From a virus: a stretch of DNA of 27,122 nucleotides. The position numbers were made by a program, and so were the translations under genes. The stretch covers positions 1-27,122 of IMG/VR virus record IMGVR_UViG_3300031566_000306, one strand, 5' to 3'. The notes under the pieces are model-generated. The model did no database searches, was not told the DNA's origin, and worked only from the letters and a program-made list of their open reading frames with translations. Positions 5,055-26,109 of this stretch are shown here, one piece after another. The stretch's first letter is position 1. The number at the start of each line of letters is the position of its first letter.

Positions 5055-5124
5055 AACAGTGAAAGGTGGAAGGCTGAAGGTGGAAGGTTAAAACCTTTTA
5101 CCTTTTACCTTTAACCTTTTACCG
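5055..5124 (+). repeat. Heptanucleotide inverted array 1
   Basis: A purine-rich half made of 7-base units (GAAAGGT, GGAAGGC, TGAAGGT and similar) is followed by the complementary pyrimidine half (CCTTTTA, CCTTTAA and similar). The halves can pair as one long imperfect hairpin. It occupies the space between portal and protease/capsid genes and ends 1-2 bases before the ribosome-site hairpin. Confidence 0.8.
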
Positions 5125-5125
5125 A

Positions 5126-5140
5126 AAAACCGGAGGTTTT
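5126..5140 (+). promoter_or_regulatory. Hairpin enclosing the ribosome site of the protease/capsid gene
   Basis: AAAACC, loop GGA, GGTTTT: six paired bases around the Shine-Dalgarno GGAGG, with ATG three bases later at 5144. Confidence 0.6.
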
Positions 5141-5143
5141 ACC

Positions 5144-7219
5144 ATGAAAAAAAAGAAAATCATCCATCGCAACCAGGCGAACACCGACGATTTGAGCTAC
5201 CGCACCATATGCCTGCGGATGCAGGACGGCGCACCGGCCACCCTAAATATAGAGGACCGCAGCGTCGAAGTCGTGGGCGCCACCGAGGCGCCGGTTGAAA
5301 TATTTGACTGGGAGCGGGGTATTATCAGTGAAATTTTAATGATGGACGGGTTGGAGACACCGAAATCAAGACAGGTGCCGCTGTTGGACACGCACCAACG
5401 ATGGGCCGGAACATCCAGCGTATTGGGATCCTATCGGGACATGAAAGCCGAAAAAGATCAGCTTACGGGACGGGTCTATTTTTCCAGTGTGCCAGAGGCG
5501 GAAGGGCCTTTCACCAAACTCAGGGAGGGCCACCTCACCGATTTCTCCGTGGGATATCGTCAGATCAGCTCTGAATGGGTGCCCAAAGATGAACGCAGAA
5601 CCATCAAGGGGCGCAGCTTTGAGGGGCCGGTTCTGGTAACCACCCGGTGGCGGGCCAAGGAGCTTTCGATCCTTCCTATCGGAGCGGACGAACAGGCCAA
5701 GGCCAGAAGCGAAACCAAAAAAAAGAAACGATCAACTTCAACAGAGGAGAAGAATATCATGAATGAGAAAACGAGAAAATTCCTGGAGGCAAGGGGGCTT
5801 TCCAAGGAGGCCACGGAAGAAGAAGCCTGGGCGTTCCTGGAGAGGCTGGATTTGCCGAAGGAGGCGCAAAAAAGAATTGAAAAAGAGTCCGAGGTCGATA
5901 TCGACAAAATCCGGAAAGAGGCCACCGGCGAAGAGCGGGACCGGATCCGGGGCATCGATGCCATGTGCACGAAATTTGATTACCCCTCTGAAAAAGCCGA
6001 TGATCTGGTTCGTGAAGGGACGCCCCTGGACGCGGCTCGTGAAAAGGTAATGACATGGCTGATCGAAAAGCAGGATGAAAACGGCACCCAGTACCGGACG
6101 CCCATTGAAACCATCGCGGACGAGCGGGACAAATTCCGTGCGGCCGCCGTCGATGCGCTGCTGATCCGGTCCGGCCCGGCCTTCCATCCGGAAAAACCGG
6201 CCCTGGGCGCCCAAGATCTCACCGGGTATTCTTTAAGAGAACTGGCTCGCCACGCGTTGTACATGGCCGGAAAATCACAGGCCGGGGATCCCAGAAAGAT
6301 GGTGGGACGTGCGCTTCAAACCACCGACCTGCCCTATATCCTGGGAAACGTGGCCAACAAGGCCCTGTTTGTCGGCTTTGAGACCAGCGAGGAAACCTGG
6401 CCGGTCTGGTGCGCCACCGGGTCCGTGTCGGATTTCAAAATACACTCTTCACCGAGAATATCGGAAAGCGACGACCTGGAGGAAGTGCCGGAGCACGGCG
6501 AATACCAGTATGGGTCCAGATCCGAGGAACAGGAGCAGTATTCCATCGCCACCTATGGAAAGATTTTTGCCATCACCCGTCAGGCCATTATCAATGACGA
6601 TCTGGGGGCATTGACTCGGATCCCTATGAGCCACGGGGAAGCTGCGAACCGGAAAATCGGGGACGTGGTCTACGCGGTGCTGTCCGCCAACGCGGCCATG
6701 GGTGACGGGCTGGCATTGTTTGTCGCCGGCCACAGCAATCTTGTGGATTCCGGCTCCGGCGCTGCGCCGGGAGTTGACACCATCACCGCCGGCGTGCTGG
6801 CCATGGGAACCCAGAAGGATATCAAGGGGCTCCGCCGGCTCAATATCCGGCCGGAATTCTTTATCGCGCCCAAAGCCCTGGAAGGTGCTTCCGAGGTGTT
6901 TTTCCAGACCCTGCAGTACGCGGATTCCAACACTATTGCAACGGACAGTTCTTTGGCGGCCACCCGGAAAAATATCTATGGCGGGACTTATTTTACCCGG
7001 GTCTATGAACCCAGGATCGATGACGACGTGGCCACGAAGTGGTATCTGGCCGCCCGTAAAGGGAAAACCATAATCATTTTTTTCTTGAACGGTCAAGAAG
7101 CACCGTACATGGAGACCAAAGAAGGCTGGACCGTGGACGGTGTGGAATACAAAGTCAGAATCGATGCCGGCGCAAAGGCCATGGACTGGCGCGGCATGTA
7201 TCAGAATTATGGGGTATAA
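5144..7219 (+). CDS. Prohead protease/major capsid protein fusion
   Basis: 691 residues. Residues about 30-190 read as a HK97-type prohead protease with a likely catalytic His in LLDTHQRW (H84) and Ser in DFSVGYR (S135). Residues 200-330 are charged and helical (scaffold/delta-domain-like), and about 345-691 form a HK97-fold capsid protein with LFVGFETSEETWPVWC, the E-loop-like EHGEYQYGSRSEEQEQYSIATYGKIFAITR, and a C-terminal GTYFTRVYEPRID. Fused protease-capsid proteins are a known phage family. An in-frame ATG at 5759 with GAGGAG before it could give a separate scaffold-capsid product of 486 residues. Capsid maturation would require cleavage after assembly. Confidence 0.88.
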   Translation: MKKKKIIHRNQANTDDLSYRTICLRMQDGAPATLNIEDRSVEVVGATEAPVEIFDWERGIISEILMMDGLETPKSRQVPLLDTHQRWAGTSSVLGSYRDMKAEKDQLTGRVYFSSVPEAEGPFTKLREGHLTDFSVGYRQISSEWVPKDERRTIKGRSFEGPVLVTTRWRAKELSILPIGADEQAKARSETKKKKRSTSTEEKNIMNEKTRKFLEARGLSKEATEEEAWAFLERLDLPKEAQKRIEKESEVDIDKIRKEATGEERDRIRGIDAMCTKFDYPSEKADDLVREGTPLDAAREKVMTWLIEKQDENGTQYRTPIETIADERDKFRAAAVDALLIRSGPAFHPEKPALGAQDLTGYSLRELARHALYMAGKSQAGDPRKMVGRALQTTDLPYILGNVANKALFVGFETSEETWPVWCATGSVSDFKIHSSPRISESDDLEEVPEHGEYQYGSRSEEQEQYSIATYGKIFAITRQAIINDDLGALTRIPMSHGEAANRKIGDVVYAVLSANAAMGDGLALFVAGHSNLVDSGSGAAPGVDTITAGVLAMGTQKDIKGLRRLNIRPEFFIAPKALEGASEVFFQTLQYADSNTIATDSSLAATRKNIYGGTYFTRVYEPRIDDDVATKWYLAARKGKTIIIFFLNGQEAPYMETKEGWTVDGVEYKVRIDAGAKAMDWRGMYQNYGV
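5719..5725 (+). other. A AAA AAG slippery heptamer at the protease/scaffold junction
   Basis: The run of eight A followed by G reads A AAA AAG in the zero frame. A -1 slip would end at TGA 5764-5766, a few bases past the internal ATG 5759; the +1 frame closes at TGA 5760-5762. No upstream stimulator is obvious, so this is a candidate only. Confidence 0.35.
5743..5761 (+). promoter_or_regulatory. Internal ribosome binding site and ATG within the capsid fusion
   Basis: AGAGGAG at 5743-5749 lies nine bases before the in-frame ATG 5759, better placed than the signals of several real genes here. It would yield scaffold-capsid without the protease, like lambda Nu3 starting inside gene C. Confidence 0.55.
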
Positions 7220-7221
7220 AA

Positions 7222-7290
7222 AAAAAGAAGGAAAGAGAAAAGAGGAAAGAGAAAAACTAATTCTTATTTCCTATTTCCTATTAGGCGTTT
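7222..7290 (+). repeat. Purine/pyrimidine low-complexity spacer
   Basis: AAGGAAAGAGAAAAGAGGAAAG is followed by TTCTTATTTCCTATTTCCTATT. It has the same purine-then-pyrimidine plan as the heptamer arrays, but with the GAAAGAGAAAAGAG vocabulary found in frame in the terminase gene. It separates the capsid gene from the next one. Confidence 0.6.
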
Positions 7291-7313
7291 TTTTAAAAAA
7301 GGAGAAAAATATC

Positions 7314-7706
7314 ATGCAAACATCAGGACTTGAAAAAGCAAAAGTCAACCTGGCCTCGTTTGAATACGACTTTGCGGTTCACGGCGGGGACATCGGGGAC
7401 ATCACCCTGGTCAACGACGTGCTGCCCGATGACGCCATTGTCATGGACGGCGTTATCGAGGTCAAGACCGCACTGGCCGGAACCGGGGCCACCGTTGCGC
7501 TCAAGGTGCTGGGTACGGACGACATCCTGGCGGCCACGGCCATCACGTCGTTTACCCTGGCGGCGGTTTTGGACGTGGTGCCGGTCGGCACTGCGGCCAC
7601 CATGATCAAAATGACGGCCAAAGGGAACATGACCATGTCCGTGGCCGTGGCGGCATTGACGGCGGGCCGGTTCGTGGTTCACCTGAAATATGTGCTCGGG
7701 GTTTAA
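7314..7706 (+). CDS. Small head protein, possible capsid decoration protein
   Basis: 130 residues from ATG 7314, preceded by AAAAAAGGAG; the frame stays open upstream but that part is repeat-derived. The protein is almost free of charged clusters and rich in Ala, Val, Thr and Gly in alternating strands (IVMDGVIEVKTALAGTGATVALKVL), as in compact beta-sandwich decoration or fibre-head proteins. Its place between the major capsid and the connector gene is where lambda-like phages put decoration or FI-type genes. No sequence motif secures the call; a structural head protein is likely, decoration specifically is inference. Confidence 0.7.
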   Translation: MQTSGLEKAKVNLASFEYDFAVHGGDIGDITLVNDVLPDDAIVMDGVIEVKTALAGTGATVALKVLGTDDILAATAITSFTLAAVLDVVPVGTAATMIKMTAKGNMTMSVAVAALTAGRFVVHLKYVLGV

Positions 7707-7708
7707 TC

Positions 7709-8029
7709 GTGGGTGATTTTGATGATGCCGTAACCGCCGCCATGGCCGTATGGTTCGGGCCCGGTATGGATCCGGAGACCGTCACCTACAAAGGGACGGG
7801 TATTCCGGGCCATATATCCTATGGCGGAAGATCCGACGGTGAAAACGCCCGGACCGCAATTCTGGAGGTCCGGGTTTCCGACGTTCCGAACCCGACCTAC
7901 CGGGACACGGCGGTGATCAACGGCGTCACCTGGCGGGTGTATCGGGATCAGAGCCAGGAGGTGGTCATCCAGGGGGACGGCTACACCTGGAAACTTCCCA
8001 TCACCCGGGACGAACGGCCGAGGTGGTGA
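7709..8029 (+). CDS. Head-tail joining protein, gpFII-like
   Basis: 106 residues starting at GTG 7709, two bases after the preceding stop, with GGGG about eight bases upstream. It resembles lambda FII-type stoppers: an N-terminal helix (FDDAVTAAMAVWFGPGMDPETV), then a beta-barrel with the phrase ILEVRVSDVPNPTYRDTAVINGVTWRV, in which the 'P.. GD.. ..G..Y.V' element is typical of these connectors, and a WKLPITRDERPRW end. It would close the head and present the tail-docking surface. Order (capsid, small head protein, this, tail terminator candidate, tube) supports the role. Confidence 0.65.
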   Translation: MGDFDDAVTAAMAVWFGPGMDPETVTYKGTGIPGHISYGGRSDGENARTAILEVRVSDVPNPTYRDTAVINGVTWRVYRDQSQEVVIQGDGYTWKLPITRDERPRW

Positions 8030-8147
8030 AAAGTGAAAGTGAAAGGCTGAAGGTGGAAGGCTGAAGGCTGAAGGTTAAAACCTTTTACCTTTAACCCTTC
8101 AGCCTTCCACCTTCAGCCTTCTACCTTCAGCCTTTTACCTTTAACCT
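8030..8147 (+). repeat. Heptanucleotide inverted array 2
   Basis: Units of the type GAAGGCT, GAAGGTG and AAAGTGA are followed by ACCTTTA, ACCCTTC, AGCCTTC and so on. The purine half (to about 8079) is shorter than the pyrimidine half. The array leads directly into the ribosome-site hairpin of the next gene. Confidence 0.8.
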
Positions 8148-8164
8148 GAAAACCGAAGGTTTTC
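8148..8164 (+). promoter_or_regulatory. Hairpin enclosing the ribosome site of the tail terminator candidate
   Basis: GAAAACC, loop GAA, GGTTTTC, seven paired bases. Here the Shine-Dalgarno is GAAGG rather than GGAGG, yet the stem is kept and even extended. ATG follows at 8169. Confidence 0.6.
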
Positions 8165-8168
8165 GACC

Positions 8169-8645
8169 ATGAACATCAACACTCTGATCGTTAATTTTTC
8201 CGAGGCCCTGGCCCAGTCCGCGACCATTAAGGCCTGGACCCAGACCAACTACACCAAAGATCACTGGGTATTCGTGGGCCTGGACACCCGGGACCCGCCC
8301 GGTGAGGACGATTGTCCGTATTTTGTCATCTATCCGGGCCGGAAATATGGAGGCCAGCACCGCCGGGAACGGCACCAGGAGGTCGAGCTGATCGCCTGCC
8401 TGCATGACACCACCATCCGGTCCCACGGCGCCATTACCAACATCACCGAATACACCGGGATCCAGAACATCGAGACGTTTCGCAAGCTGGGGGAGACGGT
8501 CATCGCCGGGGTGGACATCGGGAACGCGGCCCTGGCCGTGGTGGACATCGATTATGAATTGACCGAGAGTTTTCCGTTTTTCATGTGTGGGACTCTGTTC
8601 GATGTCTGGGAGTCGGTGATCATCGGGAGTGATCCGCTTTTGTAG
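8169..8645 (+). CDS. Tail completion/terminator candidate
   Basis: 158 residues. Sits between the head-tail joining gene and the tail tube gene, the usual position of tail completion (Z) or terminator (U) proteins. The sequence shows an N-terminal helix (LIVNFSEALAQSATIKAWTQTNY), a strand (HWVFVGLDTRDPP), the phrase CPYFVIYPGRKYGGQHRRERHQEVELIACL, and a C-terminal DYELTESFPFFMCGTLFDVW; the mixed alpha/beta plan with a long basic hairpin and final strand matches tail terminators in general. No diagnostic residue is present, so the role rests mainly on position. Confidence 0.6.
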   Translation: MNINTLIVNFSEALAQSATIKAWTQTNYTKDHWVFVGLDTRDPPGEDDCPYFVIYPGRKYGGQHRRERHQEVELIACLHDTTIRSHGAITNITEYTGIQNIETFRKLGETVIAGVDIGNAALAVVDIDYELTESFPFFMCGTLFDVWESVIIGSDPLL

Positions 8646-8804
8646 AAAGTGAAAGGTGAAAGGTAAAAGGCTGAAGGTAAAAGATGAAAAGTGAAAGGTA
8701 AAAGGTAAAAGGCTGAAGGCTGAAGGTTAAAACCTTTCACCTTTCACCTTTACCCTTCAGCCTTCGGCCTTTGACCTTCGACCTTCAGCCTTTAACCTTT
8801 AACC
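8646..8804 (+). repeat. Heptanucleotide inverted array 3, the longest
   Basis: About eleven purine units (AAAGGTG, AAAGGTA, AAAGGCT, GAAGGCT and similar) followed by about ten pyrimidine units. The turn lies near GGTTAAAACC (8726-8735), itself a palindrome. The whole array could fold into a hairpin of about 70 base pairs with mismatches. Confidence 0.85.
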
Positions 8805-8806
8805 TA

Positions 8807-8823
8807 AAAATCCGGAGGATTTT
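8807..8823 (+). promoter_or_regulatory. Hairpin enclosing the ribosome site of the tail tube gene
   Basis: AAAATCC, loop GGA, GGATTTT: seven paired bases, Shine-Dalgarno GGAGG across loop and 3' arm, ATG at 8827. Confidence 0.65.
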
Positions 8824-8826
8824 ACT

Positions 8827-9783
8827 ATGCAACAACGAGGCGTAAATGCCCAGATTTTATTTGGGATTGAAAATGTGGCGTTCGGCACGGTGGCCACGGT
8901 CGGGTTTGTGCTGCCGATGAACACCTGCGGCGTGACCGGGGTCAAGACGAGAAACTCGCCGGCCACTCTGACCGGGACCCGGAACACGGTGGCGCCGTTT
9001 GCCGGAAATCAGGACGTGAACGGGCCGATCGTTATACCGCTCGATTCCGGGGCCATGCCCTACTGGCTGATTGCCATGTTCGGGGATCCCACGACCACCG
9101 GGGCGGATCCTTATGTCCACGAATTCAAAGTGCCCTCATTAATGCCCAGCTTTTCTCTGGAAAAGGCCTTCACCGACCTGGCCGTGGATGTGTTTGAGCG
9201 GTACGTGGGGTGCAAGGTGCAGTCCCTGGGGATGACCTTCGGCGGCGACGGCGAGCTGGTGGGGAACATCGCCATATTGGGGGCCCAGATGAGCCACGAG
9301 GCCGCCGCATTCGATGCGGCCCCGACCACGGTGACCCTGGCCCGGGTGGAAAACTTCGACGCGGCCATCCTGGAAGGCGGCGCCGCCCTGACCAATGCCA
9401 CGGAACTGTCCCTTAATGTCGATTTCGGGCTGGACCCGAGTTCGTTTGTCATCGGCGGCGGCGGGATCCGGGGGGACATCCCCGAGGGCCTGGTCATGGT
9501 CACCGGAAAAACGACCACCCTGTTCGAGGACAAATCCCTCTTGGATAAGGCCACCGGCGACACGGAAACATCCCTCAAGATCACCGTCACCGCATCGGCC
9601 AGCTCGATTTTGGAGTTCGAGATCCAGGAGCTGCTCTATTCGGTCAACGGCGTGCCCATCGAAGGCCCCCAGGGACTGCTGGTGAATCTCGATTTCGTCG
9701 GATACTACGCGGACGGAGCAGAGGCCAGCAACATCATGGCGCGGGTGACGAACTCCGTGGTGAGTTATGATTTGATTACCTAA
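8827..9783 (+). CDS. Phage tail tube protein
   Basis: 318 residues. Early motif GVNAQILFGIENVAFGTVAT, then NTCGVTGVKTRNSPATLTGTRN, a segment GMPYWLIAMFGDPTTTG-like at residues 77-95 and the ISLEKAFTDL-type stretch (FSLEKAFTDLAVDVFERYVGCKVQSLGMTFGGDGELVGNI in the middle) are typical of the long tail-tube family of siphophages, in which subunits form stacked hexameric rings. The C-terminal part LLVNLDFVGYYADGAEAS also fits. Only one tube-like gene and no sheath gene is present, which supports a non-contractile tail. It should be among the most abundant tail products. Confidence 0.8.
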   Translation: MQQRGVNAQILFGIENVAFGTVATVGFVLPMNTCGVTGVKTRNSPATLTGTRNTVAPFAGNQDVNGPIVIPLDSGAMPYWLIAMFGDPTTTGADPYVHEFKVPSLMPSFSLEKAFTDLAVDVFERYVGCKVQSLGMTFGGDGELVGNIAILGAQMSHEAAAFDAAPTTVTLARVENFDAAILEGGAALTNATELSLNVDFGLDPSSFVIGGGGIRGDIPEGLVMVTGKTTTLFEDKSLLDKATGDTETSLKITVTASASSILEFEIQELLYSVNGVPIEGPQGLLVNLDFVGYYADGAEASNIMARVTNSVVSYDLIT

Positions 9784-9853
9784 GAAGGTGGGAAGGTTAA
9801 AGGCTGAAGGGAAAAGCAAAAACCTTCAATCTTCAGCCTTTTACCTTTAACCT
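9784..9853 (+). repeat. Heptanucleotide inverted array 4
   Basis: Short version: AAGGTTAAAGGCTGAAGG on the purine side, then TTCAATCTTCAGCCTTTTACC on the pyrimidine side, ending TTTAACCTG like arrays 2, 5 and 6. Confidence 0.75.
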
Positions 9854-9854
9854 G

Positions 9855-9871
9855 AAAATCCGGAGGATTTT
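9855..9871 (+). promoter_or_regulatory. Hairpin enclosing the ribosome site of the G-type chaperone gene
   Basis: AAAATCC, loop GGA, GGATTTT, with ATG three bases later at 9875. Confidence 0.65.
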
Positions 9872-9874
9872 TAC

Positions 9875-10183
9875 ATGCGGAAAATTCACGACATCGAGGT
9901 CCGGGGTCTGACCCGGAAGGAAGTCAAAGAACTCAAGCCCTGCGGGTTTTTTTTGAGTTTTTACAACCCGCCCGTGGACGATTTGGAAAAAATGGATGAA
10001 GGCATCGAGCGGGTCCTGGACCTGTGCGTTCTGGATAAGGAAAAATTCGAGGACCTGGAAAACGAAAACTATTTCAAGACCCTCCAGGTGTTTCGGGCCA
10101 TCTGCGCCGAGACCTACGGGGCCCAGGATGAGGAAAAAAACTTGCCGACGTCTGGGGATGGTACTCAGACGGAAAAAGAATAG
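9875..10183 (+). CDS. Tail assembly chaperone, G-type (zero-frame product)
   Basis: 102 residues. Helical, acidic protein (LTRKEVKELKPCGFFLSFYNPP, then DLEKMDEGIERVLDLCVLDKEKFEDLENENYFKTL in the middle) typical of the small chaperone encoded between tail tube and tape measure in siphophages; the opening 'EVRGLTRKEVKEL' occurs in many of these. It ends in a weakly conserved tail (TSGDGTQTEKE) that begins right after a slippery A AAA AAC at 10135-10141, as expected when a fraction of ribosomes shifts to the -1 frame and makes the GT fusion. Confidence 0.75.
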   Translation: MRKIHDIEVRGLTRKEVKELKPCGFFLSFYNPPVDDLEKMDEGIERVLDLCVLDKEKFEDLENENYFKTLQVFRAICAETYGAQDEEKNLPTSGDGTQTEKE

Positions 10184-10479
10184 ACTACTGCAAGGTGTGC
10201 AAGGGGTCCCAGGGAAAAGAGAAAACAGGAAAGAGGAAAGACCCGCCCTGCGGCACCTGCGATTATGGGGTGCAGAATGCGCCGCCCTTGATGCCGGAAA
10301 ACTTCGAGGCCTGGGAACTGTGGCAGGATGTCGGGACCCAGTGGCGGGCCGGGCCGGCGGGGCTCATCGGCCTGGATTATTCCGAAGTAAGGGCGGCGGC
10401 CGAGATGCTGGACATCGATCTGTCGCCGGGGATGTGGCGGAAAATTAAGAAGCTGGAGGGGAAAGTTTTGGAATCCTAA
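10132..10479 (+). CDS. Tail assembly chaperone T-type extension (expressed by -1 frameshift)
   Basis: Open in the -1 frame relative to the G-type gene; a GTG at 10195 is unlikely as a real start. After the shift the product continues LADVWGWYSDGKRIDYCKVC, and joined to the G part gives about 201 residues. The C-terminal block (ENFEAWELWQDVGTQWR, then AGLIGLDYSEVRAAAEMLDI) matches the DUF1799-type T proteins of lambda-like phages, which have 'QWR....G..GLDY'. Two CxxC pairs (CKVC and CGTC), separated by a basic, purine-repeat-derived linker (GSQGKEKTGKRKD), could form a zinc ribbon. GT fusions recruit tail tube subunits to the tape measure. Confidence 0.7.
   Translation, partial: GKKLADVWGWYSDGKRIDYCKVCKGSQGKEKTGKRKDPPCGTCDYGVQNAPPLMPENFEAWELWQDVGTQWRAGPAGLIGLDYSEVRAAAEMLDIDLSPGMWRKIKKLEGKVLES
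10135..10141 (+). other. A AAA AAC programmed -1 frameshift site
   Basis: The heptamer is in zero-frame register X XXY YYZ. The -1 frame has a stop at 10129-10131, just upstream, and is then open to 10479, so the shift must happen within the window that holds the heptamer. Confidence 0.65.
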
Positions 10480-10620
10480 ATTCCAAATAACAAATTCCAA
10501 ATAACAAATAAATTCCAATGACCAAAAATACAAATAACAAACAAGAAACTTTAAAGCGGTTTGGGATTTTGAATTTGTTATTTGTTTGTAATTTGGTGTT
10601 TGTGATTTGTGATTTAAGGA
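10480..10620 (+). repeat. AT-rich inverted spacer repeat (CAAATAACAAATTC type)
   Basis: CAAATAACAAATTC-type units (10486-10545) are followed by the complementary type (GAATTTGTTATTTGTTTG, from about 10570). Like the heptamer arrays it places one strand pattern, then its complement, between two genes, but uses unrelated sequence. Confidence 0.7.
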
Positions 10621-10627
10621 AAAAACC

Positions 10628-11215
10628 ATGCTGGAATCTAAACTGATCGGGCTGAAACAGCTTGAAAAGACCCTCAAGACAACGGGGGTAAAAGACGAAA
10701 AGGCCCTGTCCACCGCGATCAAGGTCGAGGGGTTCCGTCTGATGCGGCTGTTGAAAAAGCAGATCGTCGCCGGTGCCCCGGGCGGGCAGAAGTTTGCGCC
10801 GCTCACCTTTTTGTCCCGGGCGTTCGGCGGGGCCGGGCGCATGCGGCCCAACAAGCCCCTGCGGCGTCTGGCCGTTGCCGTGCGGTATCATGTTCCGAAA
10901 CAATCCCCGATCGAGATGCACGTGGGCTGGACCGGTCCCAGGACGAGCAAATCCTGGAAGCGGATCGCCGAAATGCAGCAGGAAGGATTTGAAAGCGGCA
11001 TCACCGACAAACGGCGCCGGTATTTTCTGTTCAAGGCCGCGGCCATGCCCAAACGATCGGCGGCCCGGAAATATCTCTTTCTAAAGCCCGGGACCACCCG
11101 GTTCAAAACCCCGGGCCGACCCATCATGGAGCCCTTCTGGCGGTCGGAGAAGGACCGGGCCTGGCGGAACATCCGGAACAACTACCGGCTGAAACTCAAA
11201 GGCGAGAGAATTTAA
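10628..11215 (+). CDS. Tail morphogenesis protein, HK97 gp10/Mu gpG-like
   Basis: 195 residues, strongly basic, from ATG 10628 with AAGGA about eight bases upstream. The opening LIGLKQLEKTLKTTG resembles the 'GL.EL...L' helix of HK97 gp10-type proteins; the middle has GAPGGQKFAPLTFLSRAFGG and a block KPLRRLAVAVRYHVP, like the 'W.PL ... L..SI' layout of Mu gpG virion-morphogenesis proteins. Such proteins usually act at the head-tail interface or tail end and are encoded before the tube gene, so the place directly before the tape measure is slightly unusual. Assignment is by weak pattern and neighbourhood. Confidence 0.6.
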   Translation: MLESKLIGLKQLEKTLKTTGVKDEKALSTAIKVEGFRLMRLLKKQIVAGAPGGQKFAPLTFLSRAFGGAGRMRPNKPLRRLAVAVRYHVPKQSPIEMHVGWTGPRTSKSWKRIAEMQQEGFESGITDKRRRYFLFKAAAMPKRSAARKYLFLKPGTTRFKTPGRPIMEPFWRSEKDRAWRNIRNNYRLKLKGERI

Positions 11216-11217
11216 AG

Positions 11218-13194
11218 ATGGACCAAAAACTCCAAATAATCCTATCCGCCAAAGACCTCACCCAGCGGGCCTTCACATCGGCCTCGGCCCGGGTGCGGAA
11301 GTTCACCTCGAATGTGTTTTCCATGCGCGGCGCCCTGGTGGCCACCGCCGGGGTGGCGGCCATGGGCGCGTTCGTGAAAAAGTCCATGGAGACCGCCGAC
11401 GCCATCGGCAAGGCCGCCGACGCCATCGGCATTTCCACCGGCACCCTGCAGGAATACCGGCACGCGGCCCGGATCTCGGGTGTTCAGACCGAGGCCCTGG
11501 ACAAAAGCATCGGCCAGTTTACCAAGCGGGTGGGCGAGGCCCGGGCCGGCACCGGCGCCATGATCACCTTTCTCAAGCAGTTCGATGAAAATCTTTTAAA
11601 AAACATTCAGAGCTCAAAATCCACCGACGAGGCCCTGAACCTGGTGTTCAAACGCATGGGGCAGACCGCATCGGCCACGGACAAAGCCGCCCTGGCCAAC
11701 GCCGCGTTCGGGCGTTCGGGCCTGACCATGGTCAATATGGTCAAAGACGGGGCCGCCGGTCTGGCCAAACTCCGGCAAGAGGCCCGGGACCTGGGCATCG
11801 TCATGGACGACCACCTCATCCGCAGCAGCGAAAGAGCCAATGACGAAATCGAAAAGCTCACCCGGGTCTTGAAGGTTCAGTTCATGAGCGCGGCCATCGG
11901 CCTGGCGCCCGAGATCGCCCGGATCGCCCAGTCCACAACAGACTGGTGGAAGGCCAACCAAAATATAGTCAAACAGGATGTTGCGGGGTGGGTAAGAGGT
12001 ATAACGGAAGTCATTAAGATCGGGATTAAACCATTACAAATATGGGCTGATTTATGGAAACGGATTGGCTATAAAGCCGGAGGTGGTGAGAGTGTAAGAG
12101 GGATGGATTATAAAAGTATGGATATTTCAAAACCACCTTCTCTTGATAGCAAACCTTCACCCATACCGGCGCCATTTATCGTTTCGCCGCCGGCCCAGGA
12201 TAAAGCCGCCCTGGCCGAATACAAATCCCTCATGAAGGAAGTGGAAAAGGCCCAGCAGGAATTCCAGGACGCCCTGGTAATGCCGGCGGGCACCGGTGCG
12301 ACGGTAGACGAACAGCTCCGCCGGGACGTTGGAAAATATACGGCCGGGTTCGACCAAACCCAAGAGGATATCGAAAAATCCAAAGAAGCCTATGCGGCCA
12401 TGTTCGAGGATCTGAAATTTCAGTCCGCCGATTACTATGCCTGGAAAAAAGAGCAGCTCACGGCCCAGGCCGACGCCTATGCGGAATCCACGGGTCAACG
12501 CCTGTTGTCCGAGCAGTGGCTCAATGAGCAGTTAAAGGAGCTGGACGCAGAGCGGCTGGTCGCGCAAGAAGAAACCAGCCAATTCCTGATCGATCTATCC
12601 GAGCGAACATCCGACGCCATCGAGGATACGTTTTCGGACCTGGTCTACGATCTCAAGGACGGGTGGAAGGACTGGCAGAGTTATTTCAGCAAATTGTCCG
12701 ACAGCCTGTGGCGGATCACCAGCGACATCGTCGGCCAGATGATCAAGGAATGGCTGTTCGGCACCGCGAAGACCACGGCGGCACTGGCAACGGAAGGGGT
12801 GCAGGTGGGGATCCTCACCCAGCTATATTTGGCACTGGCCGCTGCCAAGGCGGCGGCGGGAGCTGGTTCATGGGGAGGAGGGGGTGCCTCGGGTGCCGGC
12901 ACAAGTATGCCGAGAGGCGGCGGCGGCGGCGGGTATGGTTTTGACGATGGCGGGTATCTCGGCGAGGACGTGGCAGGGATCGGAAAGTCCAGCGGGAAAT
13001 CCTACGAATTCCACCGGGACGAAATATTCATGCCCATAAGCAAGGTTCACCGAGCATCCTCGAAATCCGAGGTTAAAAACCTTACCATGTACAATTCCAT
13101 CACCATCGGCCAGGCCGACGAGCGGACGGCATCCCTGCTGCTGCTGGAGATCGAGGACCGGGTCCGGAGCGTTTTGAGGGAGGAAATGCGGTGA
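11218..13194 (+). CDS. Tail tape measure protein
   Basis: 658 residues, starting three bases after the previous stop with only a weak GAGAG signal. The N-terminal region has an Ala/Gly-rich hydrophobic stretch (ALVATAGVAAMGAFV, about residues 40-54), then a helical repeat-like region with GISTGTLQEYRHAARISGV and FGRSGLTMVNMVKDGAAGL, diagnostic for tape measure proteins. A coiled-coil middle follows (about 340-460). The C-terminus is glycine-rich (about 560-590), then GYLGEDVAGIGKSSG and EFHRDEIFMP, resembling the 'GE.GPE..MP' end of lambda gpH. It sets tail length; by the usual 1.5 angstrom per residue rule the tail would be about 100 nm. Confidence 0.9.
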   Translation: MDQKLQIILSAKDLTQRAFTSASARVRKFTSNVFSMRGALVATAGVAAMGAFVKKSMETADAIGKAADAIGISTGTLQEYRHAARISGVQTEALDKSIGQFTKRVGEARAGTGAMITFLKQFDENLLKNIQSSKSTDEALNLVFKRMGQTASATDKAALANAAFGRSGLTMVNMVKDGAAGLAKLRQEARDLGIVMDDHLIRSSERANDEIEKLTRVLKVQFMSAAIGLAPEIARIAQSTTDWWKANQNIVKQDVAGWVRGITEVIKIGIKPLQIWADLWKRIGYKAGGGESVRGMDYKSMDISKPPSLDSKPSPIPAPFIVSPPAQDKAALAEYKSLMKEVEKAQQEFQDALVMPAGTGATVDEQLRRDVGKYTAGFDQTQEDIEKSKEAYAAMFEDLKFQSADYYAWKKEQLTAQADAYAESTGQRLLSEQWLNEQLKELDAERLVAQEETSQFLIDLSERTSDAIEDTFSDLVYDLKDGWKDWQSYFSKLSDSLWRITSDIVGQMIKEWLFGTAKTTAALATEGVQVGILTQLYLALAAAKAAAGAGSWGGGGASGAGTSMPRGGGGGGYGFDDGGYLGEDVAGIGKSSGKSYEFHRDEIFMPISKVHRASSKSEVKNLTMYNSITIGQADERTASLLLLEIEDRVRSVLREEMR

Positions 13195-13273
13195 AGAAGG
13201 TTAAAGGTGAAAGGTTAAAGGTTAAAGGTCTTTGCTTTTCACCCTTCAGCCTTCAGCCTTTTACCTTTAACCT
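13195..13273 (+). repeat. Heptanucleotide inverted array 5
   Basis: AAGGTTAAAGGTGAAAGG on the purine side, CACCCTTCAGCCTTCAGCC on the pyrimidine side, ending TTTACCTTTAACCTG. It fills the gap after the tape measure gene. Confidence 0.8.
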
Positions 13274-13274
13274 G

Positions 13275-13291
13275 AAAATCCGGAGGATTTT
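13275..13291 (+). promoter_or_regulatory. Hairpin enclosing the ribosome site of the minor tail gene
   Basis: AAAATCC, loop GGA, GGATTTT, then ATG at 13295; identical to the hairpins before the tail tube and G-type genes. Confidence 0.65.
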
Positions 13292-13294
13292 AAC

Positions 13295-13654
13295 ATGATG
13301 GTCCTGGGCTCATATACGTTTGTGCTGAACCCGCTGGACAGCGTGCCGGTGATCACCAAAAAAAAGCGGGCCGCGGTCATCGATACCCTGGGAGGCGGCG
13401 CCTATTTTTCATGGGGCACGTTTTTGGCCGGGCAGATCATCCCGCTGAAATGGAAAAACTGTCCCACGGCCCAGTTCAGCCAGTTCCAAACCCTCCTGGA
13501 GGCCGATGCCCAGGTGGTCTGGACCCCGGAAAACGGGAGCACCTATAACGTGGAGATCATGAGCCTGACAGGCGACTATCATTTTTCCGCCGCCGGCGGC
13601 GCCGCGTACCGGCAAAACGTGGTGATGAAACTGGTCATTATTTCGAAGGTCTAA
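13295..13654 (+). CDS. Minor tail protein
   Basis: 119 residues; ATG ATG at 13295/13298. Its place after the tape measure corresponds to the small tail-tip protein (M) of lambda. The sequence shows alternating beta strands (GSYTFVLNPLDSVPVITKKK), the phrase SWGTFLAGQIIPLKWKNCPT, a helix QFSQFQTLLEADAQ and the strand NVEIMSLTGDYHFS, consistent with the beta-sandwich fold of tail-tip proteins such as gpM or distal tail domains. Not recognised as a specific family. It is followed by array 6 and then by the tail hub gene. Confidence 0.6.
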   Translation: MMVLGSYTFVLNPLDSVPVITKKKRAAVIDTLGGGAYFSWGTFLAGQIIPLKWKNCPTAQFSQFQTLLEADAQVVWTPENGSTYNVEIMSLTGDYHFSAAGGAAYRQNVVMKLVIISKV

Positions 13655-13722
13655 GGTAAAAGGTTAAAGGTAAAAGGTTTTAACCTTCAGCCTTCAGCCT
13701 TCTCACCTTTTACCTTTAACCT
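13655..13722 (+). repeat. Heptanucleotide inverted array 6
   Basis: AAGGTAAAAGGTTAAAGG on the purine side, ACCTTCAGCCTTCAGCC and CACCTTTTACC on the pyrimidine side, ending TTTAACCTG. It is the last array before the AT-rich adsorption module; only a decayed trace occurs later (21179-21212). Confidence 0.8.
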
Positions 13723-13724
13723 GA

Positions 13725-13739
13725 AAATGCGGAGCATTT
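13725..13739 (+). promoter_or_regulatory. Hairpin enclosing the ribosome site of the tail hub gene
   Basis: AAATGC, loop GGA, GCATTT: relative to the TCC/GGA stems, both sides changed together (C to G and G to C), keeping the pairing while weakening the Shine-Dalgarno to GGAG. ATG at 13743. Confidence 0.65.
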
Positions 13740-13742
13740 CAT

Positions 13743-16700
13743 ATGTCGATCACTCTCGATCCAACCCTAAAAACCGCCCAGGACGGAGTCAACCATCGCC
13801 CTATCGTTGAAATTGTCAGTTCACCGGCGGCTTCTGTAATTCCATTGCGGGGAAATTATTTCAATACATTATCAGATCCGGAATCCGATCCCAATATTAT
13901 TGAGACATCGGACGGGCGATTGATACTGGTTGCCATAAGAAATGACAATCTGCAATATTACTACACGGACACGGATCGAATATCCTGGAATTTAGTTTCA
14001 AATCTTTACAGCGGAGAATTTGTTAGTGACGTTTCCGTATGTGAATTAATCGATGGAAATATTGGGATTATTTTAACCATCGGAGATACAACACCAAATT
14101 ACGGCATCAAATACATGATCGTTTCTCCGGTCGGAGAAATCATAACTTCCGCAACAAATATCATTGCAGCTCAATCTAATTGGATTTCCTCTGTATACGT
14201 CATTACATTGGCCAACGATACCTATCTCTTGGTTTATGCTGAAGGCACCGGATCTCCACCCAGTGAAAGCAACAATTACTATCTATACAAACGGACATCA
14301 TCCAATTTTACGTCATGGAATGCCGCATCAGCAATCACATTGACCGGACTGCTTACAACCCGGTACAAAAACAACCCGCATTTCTTGCAACTTTCCGGTG
14401 GGCGGATATATCTGCATTTCGATTATCTGGATGAACTTACAAATGATATCGAAATCAACAATCCACATTATTGCTACTCGGATGATAACGGATCTGTTTG
14501 GAGCACACCTGTTAAAATTACGGATTATGACGAATTGGGAACTACTGGACTGCATCCGGTTGTCTCTGAAAAGGCAAGCGGGGATTTAATTTTTGCGTAC
14601 AATGAAGAGGTCAATGTAAAAACATTAGATTACGATATGGCAGGGTTTCCGGAAACGCAATTTATGCCTGCATCGTTGGATTTCAATCAAACGGATAAAA
14701 AACTATATGCCTGGAATTTTCTTCAAACCGGAATAAATCAATTTGTAGATATTGATGCCAATCTCTGGGAATACGAACGAGTTTATGACAGTTCAACATC
14801 TCCGGCGATACTCAATCAGCAAAAAACGTATTATGGTTCTGGTAAATATAGTGTCAGTCAGAGAGGCGGAGCCGTATATGTAATCAATCATGATGACGAA
14901 ACGGTAACGGTATATCGTGCCAATACGGATTATGTGGGAATCCCGTGGAATTTTACTGCTACAACTGGAGATTTTGATTCTCCATTCACGGCATTTATTC
15001 GTACCACCGAGACAGTCGCTCAACTATGGCTAATGTATTATTACAATTGGGGTGGTGTAGGCGTGACTATCGGGTATATTGATTTGACTGAAATTAAAGA
15101 TCCAATCACACAAATGTATACCTGGAATGAGGTATATCAAAATGATGCAACGACTTGGAACGGCTATTTTTATATTAACCGGATGCAATATGTTGAAGAA
15201 GAAAACTGGATTATGCTAAACGGCCACCATGATACATATACCAATTTTGCAGGTATTGTGATCTTGGGGCTTAATAATGATTTAATTAAGCATTATTGCT
15301 ATGCCGAAGATTCTACATTTCCAAGATATGGTGCATTCACTGCTGCTTATTATAATAATTATATATATTTTACATTTAAATATCACACGGGTCAGCCCGA
15401 CAAAAGAGGGTTGGGACGTATTAATCTGAATGATGATTCTGTTGTGTTTTTTGTACCGACATGGGCAACCGCCAATGATTATAAATTGTTTGGTCTCATG
15501 TATATGGAAGGAACTACAAAATTATTAATGACCTGTGGAGTTTCAAGGTCCGGCGGCGTGGCCATGTTTGATACTGGAGACGCCACATGGACAATTTATG
15601 ATAACGATACATTGCCTGGATTGATTCGATCCGGATGTGATGATTCCAGCTGGGGTAATGTAGGATATGTATCAACCGCTAATACCGGAAGAATAATCGA
15701 CTATGATCCGGCAACAAAAATTATTTATGTTGCCCATTGGAATACGGGCCTTTGTGGTTATATTGCGTCATTTTCTGAATATGGAAGTTTTTCTATTCTA
15801 AAATATGCGACCGTTTCTACCCCGGCCATTTCACCAACATATGGTGAAATCGCAAATCTTAGCCTGGATGACTTTGAAGATGAGGCGGTCATCGTTGTTG
15901 ATAGCGACGATATACTCTGGGCAGTCTGGCGGCATATGGATGATGCTGAATATTCCCTGCAATGGGCTAATGCCGTGGCCAACAAGGATCTGTCAGACTA
16001 TCTGGCCGTTGAAACCAGCATTAAAATTGATTGGGATATTGACCGACCTGCAAAATTAACATTCGGCCTATCTCACGGGCATATATTTGATCCGCAGAAT
16101 TTATTATCCACCTGGTCGGTCTATCTGAAAAAAGGTCGTCAGCTTACAATTCGTGAAGGTGAAACCATAAGTGATGTTGATTATTGGCAGAATCAGGGCA
16201 CATTCATCGTGACGGAGCAAAAACTTTCTTACGATGTGGGCAAATATCCGATCATGGAAATCATTGCTGAAGACATGCGATGTTTATGGGAAGACACCCA
16301 CGTGGTGGCCAGTGAATATTTTAATGGGGAAACTCCAAAATATATTCTTGAAACCGTACTCCCGGCCCATGCGGATCTGGAATCTGGAGACATGAACATC
16401 TCTGCGTTCACCGGCACCCACGATATTTATAATCAATTTATCGATATGAGTGTAGAAGATATCGTCAAGTCCTTGCTGGATCACTTCATGTATTTTCCAT
16501 TTATCAATGTAGACAGAAAATTCGAACCCAGATATTTAGACATTGATAAGGCCGTGGATCATGCATATTCGGATACTGCCCAGATCACTGGGTATACACC
16601 GGATGGCAAGTATTCAACATTTATTAATCGGGTAGTTGTGAAGGGCCTAAGCAATTATTATCAGGAAGTGCTGTATGAAGAAGAGGTTATCGCCAGAGTA

Positions 16701-24285: not shown

Positions 24286-24387
24286 ATGTCATATATAGCA
24301 GGTATCCATAACGGTAAGAATGACGCGCAAGAAATGGCCGTTGTGCTGCTATTTCTTATCGCTGTCCATGCTCTTGTTCGGTGCTGA
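24286..24387 (+). CDS. Tiny possible membrane peptide, overlapping the methyltransferase end
   Basis: 33 codons from ATG 24286 to TGA 24385-24387, encoding a hydrophobic stretch (VVLLFLIAVHALV) at its end. Preceded by a poor ribosome site. Its last 39 bases overlap the methyltransferase gene on the other strand, so it is weakly supported; it may be residue of a decayed gene. Confidence 0.2.
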   Translation: MSYIAGIHNGKNDAQEMAVVLLFLIAVHALVRC

Positions 24388-25239
24388 TTGTTCGTTTCTC
24401 CCAGGTGGGATGGCAATAATGTCTATTCCTCCGCCAGAAGGTATAAGCTTTTCCAAATTGTCTCCGCGCACTTCGCAAGATGATTTTGTGTCCAACAGGC
24501 GGTAACCCATTGGATGCAGGAGTTCTTCGTAATCAGAAAATGATTGCTGTCGTTCTCTCATCAGGTAAGTGGTCAGCTCAAAGATCACTGTTGGCTTGAA
24601 TCGACCTATACAGCCCATTGCCCCCCTTAAGACATCCAACTCATAACCGTCTGTGTCGATCTTTATTAGGTCGAGTCTGCCGATCTCACGATTCTGAGTA
24701 AATGTGTCCAGGGTTATTTGCTTGCCCGTTGCATCTTTTGAAACGCCCAGGTGAACAGGATGTCGATTGCCGCCAAGATCATCAATCGGCCAGCTCGAGT
24801 AAGCTGTCAAGTGGCTTGATTCTGTATTCGACGCGGACACAAAGGTCTGAACCGGTATAACTCTTTTACCTATTATATCCTCATTAATCTCTATATTACG
24901 TTTCAGTTTGCCAAAAGCACTGTGTGTTGGTTCAAAGGAATATACAACGGCTTGAGTATATGTGGCTGCAAAAATCAAGGAAATCGAACCGACATTAGCT
25001 CCGACATCGAAGATAACAGCATCTTTTGGGATTTGAATGAATCTATTGCTGGTCACATGCTTCTGGAAATTACCAAACAAAAAGATCGACAGATCTATAC
25101 CTTCGGCAAGATCGACGTCAAATCTCACGCCCCTGCGACGAATTACTCTCTTCTGTTTCAAGTTTAAAAATCGCACGATTGCGAAAATCGTGCGAGCAAC
25201 CCTCATTTTGAACCGTGTTGAGTTGAAATATGGTAGCAT
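24349..25239 (-). CDS. FkbM-type SAM-dependent methyltransferase (candidate lysogenic cargo)
   Basis: 296 residues, ATG 25239 with AAGGAGAG upstream. The SAM-binding motif I FDVGANVGS is at about 77-85 and is typical of the Methyltransf_21/FkbM family, as are LIKIDTDGYE (191-200) and VIFEL (218-222). FkbM-type enzymes commonly O-methylate sugars or secondary-metabolite carbons, and phage copies can alter surface polysaccharide. It lies on the opposite strand to the structural genes, downstream of the repressor with 51 bases between, so it is likely transcribed in the lysogen. A strong terminator-like hairpin lies in its codons 15-23. Base composition is lower in GC than the head genes. Confidence 0.85.
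   Translation of the reverse strand: MLPYFNSTRFKMRVARTIFAIVRFLNLKQKRVIRRRGVRFDVDLAEGIDLSIFLFGNFQKHVTSNRFIQIPKDAVIFDVGANVGSISLIFAATYTQAVVYSFEPTHSAFGKLKRNIEINEDIIGKRVIPVQTFVSASNTESSHLTAYSSWPIDDLGGNRHPVHLGVSKDATGKQITLDTFTQNREIGRLDLIKIDTDGYELDVLRGAMGCIGRFKPTVIFELTTYLMRERQQSFSDYEELLHPMGYRLLDTKSSCEVRGDNLEKLIPSGGGIDIIAIPPGRNEQSAPNKSMDSDKK
25171..25195 (-). terminator. Terminator-like hairpin inside the methyltransferase 5' end
   Basis: Perfect 10-base arms TCGCACGATT and AATCGTGCGA with a 5-base loop. Read on the minus strand the stem is followed by TTTTT, exactly an intrinsic terminator layout, in the direction of repressor-methyltransferase transcription. Confidence 0.55.
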
Positions 25240-25290: not shown

Positions 25291-26109
25291 TTAAATGGAT
25301 TGACATTTATTAAATATCTCACCGATCTGTGCGGCGCAAGCGCGCCTTTCCTCGATACCTTCCGGAGGCTTGGTATTAATCATTATATTTTTGATCAATT
25401 CAGATATATTGTTATTTTTAAGATCTTCATTTTCATTTTTTAGTTCCGCTTTTCTTTGTTTGAGCTTTACGTTTTGCTCTTCCGCTCTGACCAGCTGATC
25501 CTCCACAACGGCCCGCCGGGCCCGTTCTTCCAGGAGCATTCTCAATAATTCCTTTTGGTTCAATTCCGTTTCCTCTTTTTTTGTGGGTTTTTCATCGAGG
25601 ACTTTGCTTTCAGTGTATTTCGGCCCGATGCCGGTCAAAATCCATGATTTGTCATACCCGGTGGCAGCCTCGATCTTTTCAAGAGCCAGGCCATATGGCG
25701 GAAATCCCAAAAAATGGGCATCGTCTTCGGTGGCGTGGATATTGATTCCGGCGGCTTCCAGAAGCTGGGCCGAATTGAAATTTCTGGATTCCTTGATTTC
25801 TTTGAGCCTTGAATAGATCAGACCGATTTCCCGCCGGGACATATTACCTAATTTTTCATCGGCCTCAAATGCCCACCGGCCTTTTTCCAAGATCGGTCCC
25901 TGATAGCCGTCATTTTTCAGCCATTCGATATTGTAAACTGTATTTTGAGACACCTTGATTAATTTCTGGCCCCGAGGCGCTTTTTCAAGTTTCATCCACC
26001 GATGAATGGTTTTGATATGAACACCGGTGTTTTTGGCCAAGTCCACCTGGGTCCAGCCTTCACGGTCTAAAATATATTGAATTTTGTCTTTAAAAAGGAG
26101 TCTATCCAT
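25291..26109 (-). CDS. CI-type phage repressor with two HTH domains and a coiled coil
   Basis: 272 residues, ATG at 26109 with AAGGA upstream. The first HTH is about residues 6-66 (ILDREGWTQVDLAKNTGVHI then TIHRWM), the second about 95-163 (SRLKEIKESRNFNSAQLLEAAG then IEAATGYDKSWILTGIGP); the latter ends in the 'GY...WLLTG.GP' element found in bacteriophage CI N-terminal domains. The first ends in IEWLKNDGYQGP, so both look like related units. A coiled coil follows (about 178-232, rich in E/K/R). There is no S24 peptidase domain with Ser-Lys, so LexA-like self-cleavage is not expected. Acts as the lysogeny regulator. Confidence 0.8.
   Translation of the reverse strand: MDRLLFKDKIQYILDREGWTQVDLAKNTGVHIKTIHRWMKLEKAPRGQKLIKVSQNTVYNIEWLKNDGYQGPILEKGRWAFEADEKLGNMSRREIGLIYSRLKEIKESRNFNSAQLLEAAGINIHATEDDAHFLGFPPYGLALEKIEAATGYDKSWILTGIGPKYTESKVLDEKPTKKEETELNQKELLRMLLEERARRAVVEDQLVRAEEQNVKLKQRKAELKNENEDLKNNNISELIKNIMINTKPPEGIEERRACAAQIGEIFNKCQSI

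Follow-up and report, generated by a model that had tools for sequence, protein, structure and literature searches.

A ribosome-site hairpin joined to an inverted heptamer array: a candidate intercistronic cassette in a siphovirus-like phage

Six genes of a siphovirus-like phage fragment are preceded by a short hairpin that carries the Shine-Dalgarno sequence, and each of these hairpins forms the 3' part of a larger cassette located between two cistrons. The fragment is the IMG/VR virus record IMGVR_UViG_3300031566_000306, positions 1 to 27,122 (27,122 nucleotides (nt), the whole stretch analysed, hereafter the window). The remainder of the cassette is an inverted array of 7-base-pair (bp) units, a feature absent from the original prediction, which was made from this DNA alone and described the hairpins. 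The proteins of the window include a GpA terminase, a lambda-type portal, a capsid protein with protease, a Phage_tube_2 tail tube and a tape measure. The array-bearing gaps sit inside an operon of co-directed genes. At the level of sequence the cassette has a defined anatomy, it recurs, its hairpin is linked to the array, and pairing is conserved while the letters change.

Hairpins at six ribosome sites

All six hairpins are on the plus strand. AAAACC-GGA-GGTTTT (5126-5140) precedes the ATG at 5144 of the capsid/protease gene, GAAAACC-GAA-GGTTTTC (8148-8164) the ATG at 8169, and AAATGC-GGA-GCATTT (13725-13739) the ATG at 13743. One version, AAAATCC-GGA-GGATTTT, occurs three times: at 8807-8823 before the tail-tube gene (ATG 8827), at 9855-9871 before ATG 9875 and at 13275-13291 before ATG 13295. 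The positions, arms and 3-nt loops are those of the original prediction. So is the distance from the stem end to the ATG, given there as 3 to 4 bases and found to be 3, 4, 3, 3, 3 and 3 nt, and so are the weakened Shine-Dalgarno versions GGAGC and GAAGG. The loop is GGA in five of the six hairpins and GAA at 8148.

Stems of at least 6 Watson-Crick pairs closing a 3-nt loop were sought in the 32-nt stretches upstream of starts and in dinucleotide-shuffled versions of them. They are found at 6 of 29 curated starts, where 0.14 are expected, and none of 5000 shuffles reaches six. Among the other ATGs of the window, one of 499 has such a stem. The whole window contains 12 triloop stems (8.9 ± 2.1 in shuffles), half of which (6) lie on ribosome sites; as such stems are not rare overall, it is their placement on ribosome sites that is non-random. 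Local stem-loops with the Shine-Dalgarno in them are thus more frequent near starts than chance would allow, and all six are part of the minimum free energy structure of their gap. The predicted stability of the small hairpins is -2.3 to -5.2 kcal/mol at 37 °C and -5.0 to -8.8 kcal/mol at 15 °C, and the predicted cost of opening the region from the Shine-Dalgarno to the AUG in context is 4-11 kcal/mol.

Anatomy of the cassette

An array directly precedes all six hairpins. It begins just past the stop codon of the preceding gene, extends as far as the hairpin and fills the gap between that stop and the ribosome site, which is 70-161 nt long. The array is an imperfect inverted one, its left half consisting of AAGGNNR units and its right half of their YNNCCTT-type complements; the pattern CCTTYNNCCTTY has 48 matches in the window, for 0.34 expected. 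In six of six gaps the array is predicted to fold into one long hairpin, with the small hairpin of the ribosome site after it, and the z-scores range from -4.4 to -12.5. The array between the portal stop and the capsid-gene hairpin, recognised from the sequence and the pattern, occupies 5055-5125 (z -5.7 for 5055-5143). The other five, found by the pattern, are at 8030-8147 (z -12.5 for 8030-8168), 8646-8806 (z -6.0 for 8700-8826), 9784-9854 (z -5.5 for 9784-9874), 13195-13274 (z -6.4 for 13195-13294) and 13655-13724 (z -4.4 for 13655-13742), and all six are on the plus strand. The array hairpins are not Rho-independent terminators, for what comes after them is an A-rich stretch with the ribosome-binding-site (RBS) hairpin, and no U run.

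The repeat-filled gaps 7220-7313 and 10480-10627 are built of other units and have no small RBS hairpin. Other repeat families, AAAGAGA/TTTCCTA, AAATTCC/AAATAAC and TTTAGGCAT, fill these two gaps and stretches at about 369-440 and 728-772, the latter likewise with no RBS hairpin.

Conservation of pairing in related phages

Relatives retrieved by protein searches of IMG/VR form a graded series, in which the tail tube is from 100 to 53% identical. Orthologous starts often retain a hairpin whose arms differ and still pair, and some orthologs have none. In the capsid-gene hairpin AAAACC/GGTTTT is replaced by AAAATC/GATTTT, and at gene 8169 GAAAACC-GAA-GGTTTTC is replaced by GAAAATC-GGA-GATTTTC. 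At gene 9875 AAAATCC gives way to AAAATGC/GCATTTT and TAAAATC/GATTTTA, and at gene 13295 the versions are AAAACC-AAA-GGTTTT and AAAATGC/GCATTTT. The tape-measure hairpin of relatives, AAATGU-GGA-GCAUUU, includes one G-U pair.

The covariation check proposed along with the original prediction supports the pairing. On 18 clade sites, which were chosen as hairpin candidates and whose cells are sequences and not independent events, the covariation score is 0.435, against 0.10 ± 0.03 when shuffled (0 of 500) and at most 0.06 with slid partners; 95% of the pairing cells are paired, against 76% in shuffles. A census made with automated start calls and no selection of candidates covered ten contigs, namely the window and nine homology-retrieved relatives. 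It finds a stem of at least 6 bp at 14 of the 41 starts preceded by an array (1.45 expected) and at 5 of 191 starts with no array (2.75 expected). As far as sequences can tell, the fold is conserved while its letters change, and it is tied to the arrays.

In two relatives, L055 and L057, the gap before the tail-tube gene has no RBS hairpin and contains another inverted repeat, apparently of 8 bp (CACGAAGGCACAAAGA...CTTAGTGCCTTGGTGG). The contents of orthologous gaps therefore turn over completely between relatives.

Gain, loss and possible exchange of cassettes

Whole cassettes can be present or absent at one junction. The relative L054 has a full cassette (array and AAAATGC-GGA-GCATTTT) around 12415-12501, between the counterpart of gene 10628-11215 and the tape-measure gene. 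At the matching junction of the window (11203-11219) the same two genes are found with no cassette, the start lying 2 nt after the stop; the flanks of this junction are 85-87% identical between the two phages. The best L054 matches of the window cassettes are often at other loci. The array loops read GGTTAAAACC or TTTGCTTTTC, or else GAAAAGCAAA, the reverse complement of TTTGCTTTTC. Since array loops are found in both orientations, the sequences suggest that the arm-loop-arm segment could invert by recombination between the arms. The TTTGCTTTTC and GAAAAGCAAA orientations were observed at 9784-9854, at 13195-13274 and in L054 cassettes.

Because the cassettes are dispersed and recombine, some joint changes of the two arms could be due to cassette exchange. 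The main contender, which builds on this, is a palindrome maintained at the DNA level, the arms of which are matched by template switching (quasipalindrome correction), by exchange of cassettes or as the end of a mobile repeat, while translation is unregulated. The dispersal of the cassettes, their matches at other loci, their presence or absence as a whole and the two loop orientations all agree with it. Furthermore, the relative L048 has 13 triloop palindromes where shuffles have 5.7 ± 1.9, and cases of wobble asymmetry are too few to separate RNA from DNA pairing. In the window, however, there is no excess of such stems away from ribosome sites (6 others, with 8.9 expected in all), and a correction process would not explain why GGA lies at the centre of the stems. 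Among 12 cassettes of three phages the hairpin version never equals that of the nearest neighbour by array. This independence from array kinship means that exchange of whole cassettes explains the paired changes poorly. The arms of the small hairpin are perfect in 12 of the 12 cassettes, whereas the array arms are about 67-90% complementary; judged by these sequences, the small stem is under a stricter pairing standard than the array stem. A purely DNA-level origin is accordingly unlikely, although it deserves serious consideration.

The original prediction held that changes in one arm are matched in the other even where the Shine-Dalgarno is weakened, and this is borne out, in relatives and in the unrelated phages described below as well. 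Its conclusion that the fold is under selection is the preferred interpretation of the data, with the reservation that cassette exchange or template-switch correction could also match the arms. Joint change of both arms can, in part, be a signature of recombination or mutation.

Occurrence in unrelated phages and in bacterial genomes

An arm-neutral scan of viral contigs, in which AAAA..CGGAG..TTTT was fixed before an ATG and two stem pairs were left free, returned at least 120 stretches. Among the matches listed, both free pairs are Watson-Crick in 24 of 88 sites, for 6.9 ± 2.4 by shuffling. After dereplication, again among the matches listed, the free pairs match in 16 of 19 sites with an upstream repeat array and in 8 of 86 with none (Fisher p 1.7e-10). 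The changes are hence compensatory by covariation and at 16 of 19 array sites, in sequences that may share events. The period of the upstream arrays is 7 in nearly all listed matches, and the heptamers vary by phage (TTACGAA, CCTCGAA, CTAATTC, AAATAAC, AACTAAG, GTGAACC and ATCAGCT). The geometry is kept with quite unlike arms in CAGCCC-GGA-GGGCTG, CGCGCCC-GGA-GGGCGCG, TTTTCCC-GGA-GGGAAAA, GTTTTTC-GGA-GAAAAAC and ATTAC-GGA-GTAAT of viral contigs, and in the RBS hairpin TGCGAC-GGA-GTCGCA of a bacterial genome. A scan for CTAATT arrays gave 5 sites with hairpins at 2, and those two are very alike.

Among the products of the genes downstream are tail sheath, tape measure, tail tube, terminase, excisionase-like and transposase-like proteins and, in a bacterial genome, a ParA-like protein. 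The shared control of head and tail genes proposed in the original prediction is therefore too narrow, as the same arrangement also precedes genes of these other kinds.

A prophage search of 395 Desulfobacterota genomes gave one distant tail-tube match and identified no host. A general RBS style of the host is not the explanation, for the neutral pattern has 7 matches in these 395 genomes; in about 245 kb each of two genomes, G125 and G240, RBS hairpins are few and arrays before starts almost absent. The combined heptamer and hairpin pattern has 12 matches in genome contigs, all of which proved on inspection to be chance matches lacking the cassette. A nucleotide search with one cassette against cultured phages and plasmids gave no match, although the low-complexity filter of BLAST may hide one. 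Heptamer arrays of the CCTT type occur in 28 of the 395 Desulfobacterota genomes and in G001, the genome of L010 (a Desulfococcaceae metagenome-assembled genome). Some of the Desulfobacterota arrays lie directly before start codons, and the RBS hairpin is mostly absent from them. Closely similar sites in three contigs, L337, L339 and L346, have TTTTTTC-GGA-GAAAAAA at a start and no repeat array; GGA-triloop RBS hairpins thus exist apart from arrays too.

Tentatively, and with rather less than even confidence, these elements may be regarded as an undescribed class of portable intercistronic cassettes, composed of a fast-changing array and a GGA-triloop RBS, which has spread within and between phages and rarely to bacteria.

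Proposed function and its alternatives

The function proposed for the cassette, which we consider the most likely one and evenly balanced between right and wrong, is that of an array hairpin combined with a weak gate at the RBS, so that each gene initiates on its own. In the mRNA the array would fold into a long hairpin, followed by a hairpin of 6-8 bp that holds the Shine-Dalgarno core GGA in a 3-nt loop. With a stability of about -2 to -5 kcal/mol at 37 °C and -5 to -9 at 15 °C, the small hairpin would act as a weak gate that has to melt before the start, and the ribosome would land on the GGA in its loop. The long array hairpin would stand between the ribosome terminating upstream and the ribosome site, and so separate neighbouring genes. 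Each gene would then begin translation independently at a set, moderated rate. The distance of 70-161 nt to the upstream stop, with the array in between, speaks for independent initiation; the same facts rule out translational coupling at the stop codon. This model presumes folding in cells and moderated initiation; by it the RBS hairpin would alter translation in cells and selection would act through translation. The further idea that the hairpin is an insulator, shielding the Shine-Dalgarno from the array, was dropped, since barring the 5' arm had inconsistent effects.

Several observations weigh against a cassette of this function, in addition to the choice of the 18 covariation sites as candidates. 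By the usual rule, a stem needs a stability of about -6 kcal/mol or better to slow initiation appreciably at 37 °C. In the ten-contig census 27 of the 41 array-preceded starts have no hairpin, and hairpins with no array are found at gene 9875 of L060 and in L087. The mirror class TTTT..CGGAG..AAAA, predicted beforehand to pair more than by chance and in company with arrays, did so modestly (13 of 90, for 6.7 ± 2.4; p 0.012), with both of its array-preceded matches paired. At CCTT-type array sites of other viruses a stem of at least 6 bp is present in 9 of 89, six of which belong to the window's own group; as most of these sites lack the hairpin, its distribution is much narrower than that of the arrays.

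The cassette might instead be a signal for mRNA processing or stabilisation, in which RNase III cuts the array hairpin and leaves a new 5' end close to the ribosome site, capped by the small hairpin. The array stems are long, strongly predicted and placed in intercistronic gaps of a co-directed operon, as this would require, and such processing is compatible with the gated initiation proposed above. By itself it does not account for the Shine-Dalgarno core in the loop, and the RBS hairpins of L060 and L087 exist with no array to be cut. We consider it improbable.

Slightly less credit is due to a translational operator, in which a protein of the phage or the host, such as one of the CsrA/RsmA kind, binds the hairpin. 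The GGA in the loop of five of the six stems, and of most others, fits such a site, and several sites per phage would permit a single repressor. A CsrA/RsmA site proper is rejected, as the ANGGAN hexaloop with its conserved A is absent: none of the six has an A two bases before the GGA (the bases are C, C, C, C and G), and the loops are of 3 nt. The arms vary completely, and Pfam gave no CsrA among the window proteins scanned, which do not cover every open reading frame. The operator is on balance quite improbable.

An RNA thermometer, in which rising temperature melts the stem and admits the ribosome, is very improbable: the predicted stability of the AAAATCC stem does drop from -8.6 kcal/mol at 4 °C to -3.6 at 37 °C, and AU-rich stems over a Shine-Dalgarno are thermometer-like, but any weak stem acts so in silico and the GC-rich versions CGCGCCC and CAGCCC would melt far higher. 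A fourU thermometer is ruled out, since UUUU pairs with AAAA and not with the Shine-Dalgarno, and GGA is in the loop. No Rfam thermometer matched at the gathering score, and a relaxed threshold gave only chance matches of array hairpins to microRNA and similar models.

Other features of the window

Near the end of gene 9875-10183 lies the run AAAAAAAC (10134-10141), which is retained in most relatives. The reading frame after this gene (10195-10479 in the window) has no start of its own in relatives. From its sequence the run looks like a programmed frameshift site that would yield a longer tail-assembly protein. At the right end of the window, genes for an FkbM-type methyltransferase and a helix-turn-helix regulator are encoded on the opposite strand (24349-25239 and 25291-26109, both minus).

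Comparison with known systems

RBS hairpins that sequester the Shine-Dalgarno are known in phages, for instance in the lysozyme gene e of T4 and in MS2. As in these, a short local stem with the Shine-Dalgarno just before the start could moderate initiation. Here, in contrast, several genes of one phage share the GGA-triloop geometry, with the stem ending 3-4 nt before the ATG, and the hairpins vary in their letters and adjoin an inverted 7-bp array. Intercistronic RNase III sites of the T7 type are long hairpins between cistrons that are cleaved. The cassette resembles them in its long hairpin, which likewise separates two cistrons and precedes a start codon. It differs in the tandem 7-bp units that make up the stem and in the additional Shine-Dalgarno hairpin that comes after it; cleavage of the cassette is hypothetical.

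CsrA sites have an ANGGAN hexaloop with a conserved A, and selected ligands typically have four or fewer stem pairs (PMC7652899). They share with the present hairpins a GGA in a loop over the Shine-Dalgarno; the longer stems and the lack of both the hexaloop and the conserved A set the latter apart. In marine Beggiatoaceae, TAACTGA heptamer repeats are found upstream of start codons, and a post-transcriptional role has been proposed for them (MacGregor 2015, PMC4679880). These are exact direct repeats of one word, with no particular RNA structure predicted, and were proposed to replace the Shine-Dalgarno (PMC4679880). The arrays described here likewise consist of 7-nt intergenic units right before start codons. 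They do not belong to the TAACTGA type, having neither that word nor the direct orientation nor a structure-free sequence: the units vary (AAGGNNR/YNNCCTT), are inverted and strongly folded, and a Shine-Dalgarno is present in a hairpin of its own.

No paper on inverted heptamer arrays joined with Shine-Dalgarno hairpins was found in the open-access literature searched. Short-period intergenic arrays with no assigned role are common in environmental bacterial and viral genomes, and through the link to a structurally conserved RBS hairpin a role in translation can be proposed for them and tested. A cassette that is present or absent as a whole at one junction would be a route by which a complete module for translation initiation is acquired or lost in one step. 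Shine-Dalgarno hairpins and heptamer repeats are each known; what appears new, judged by the literature searched, is their combination, as a cassette that is gained and lost, with a conserved GGA-triloop fold.

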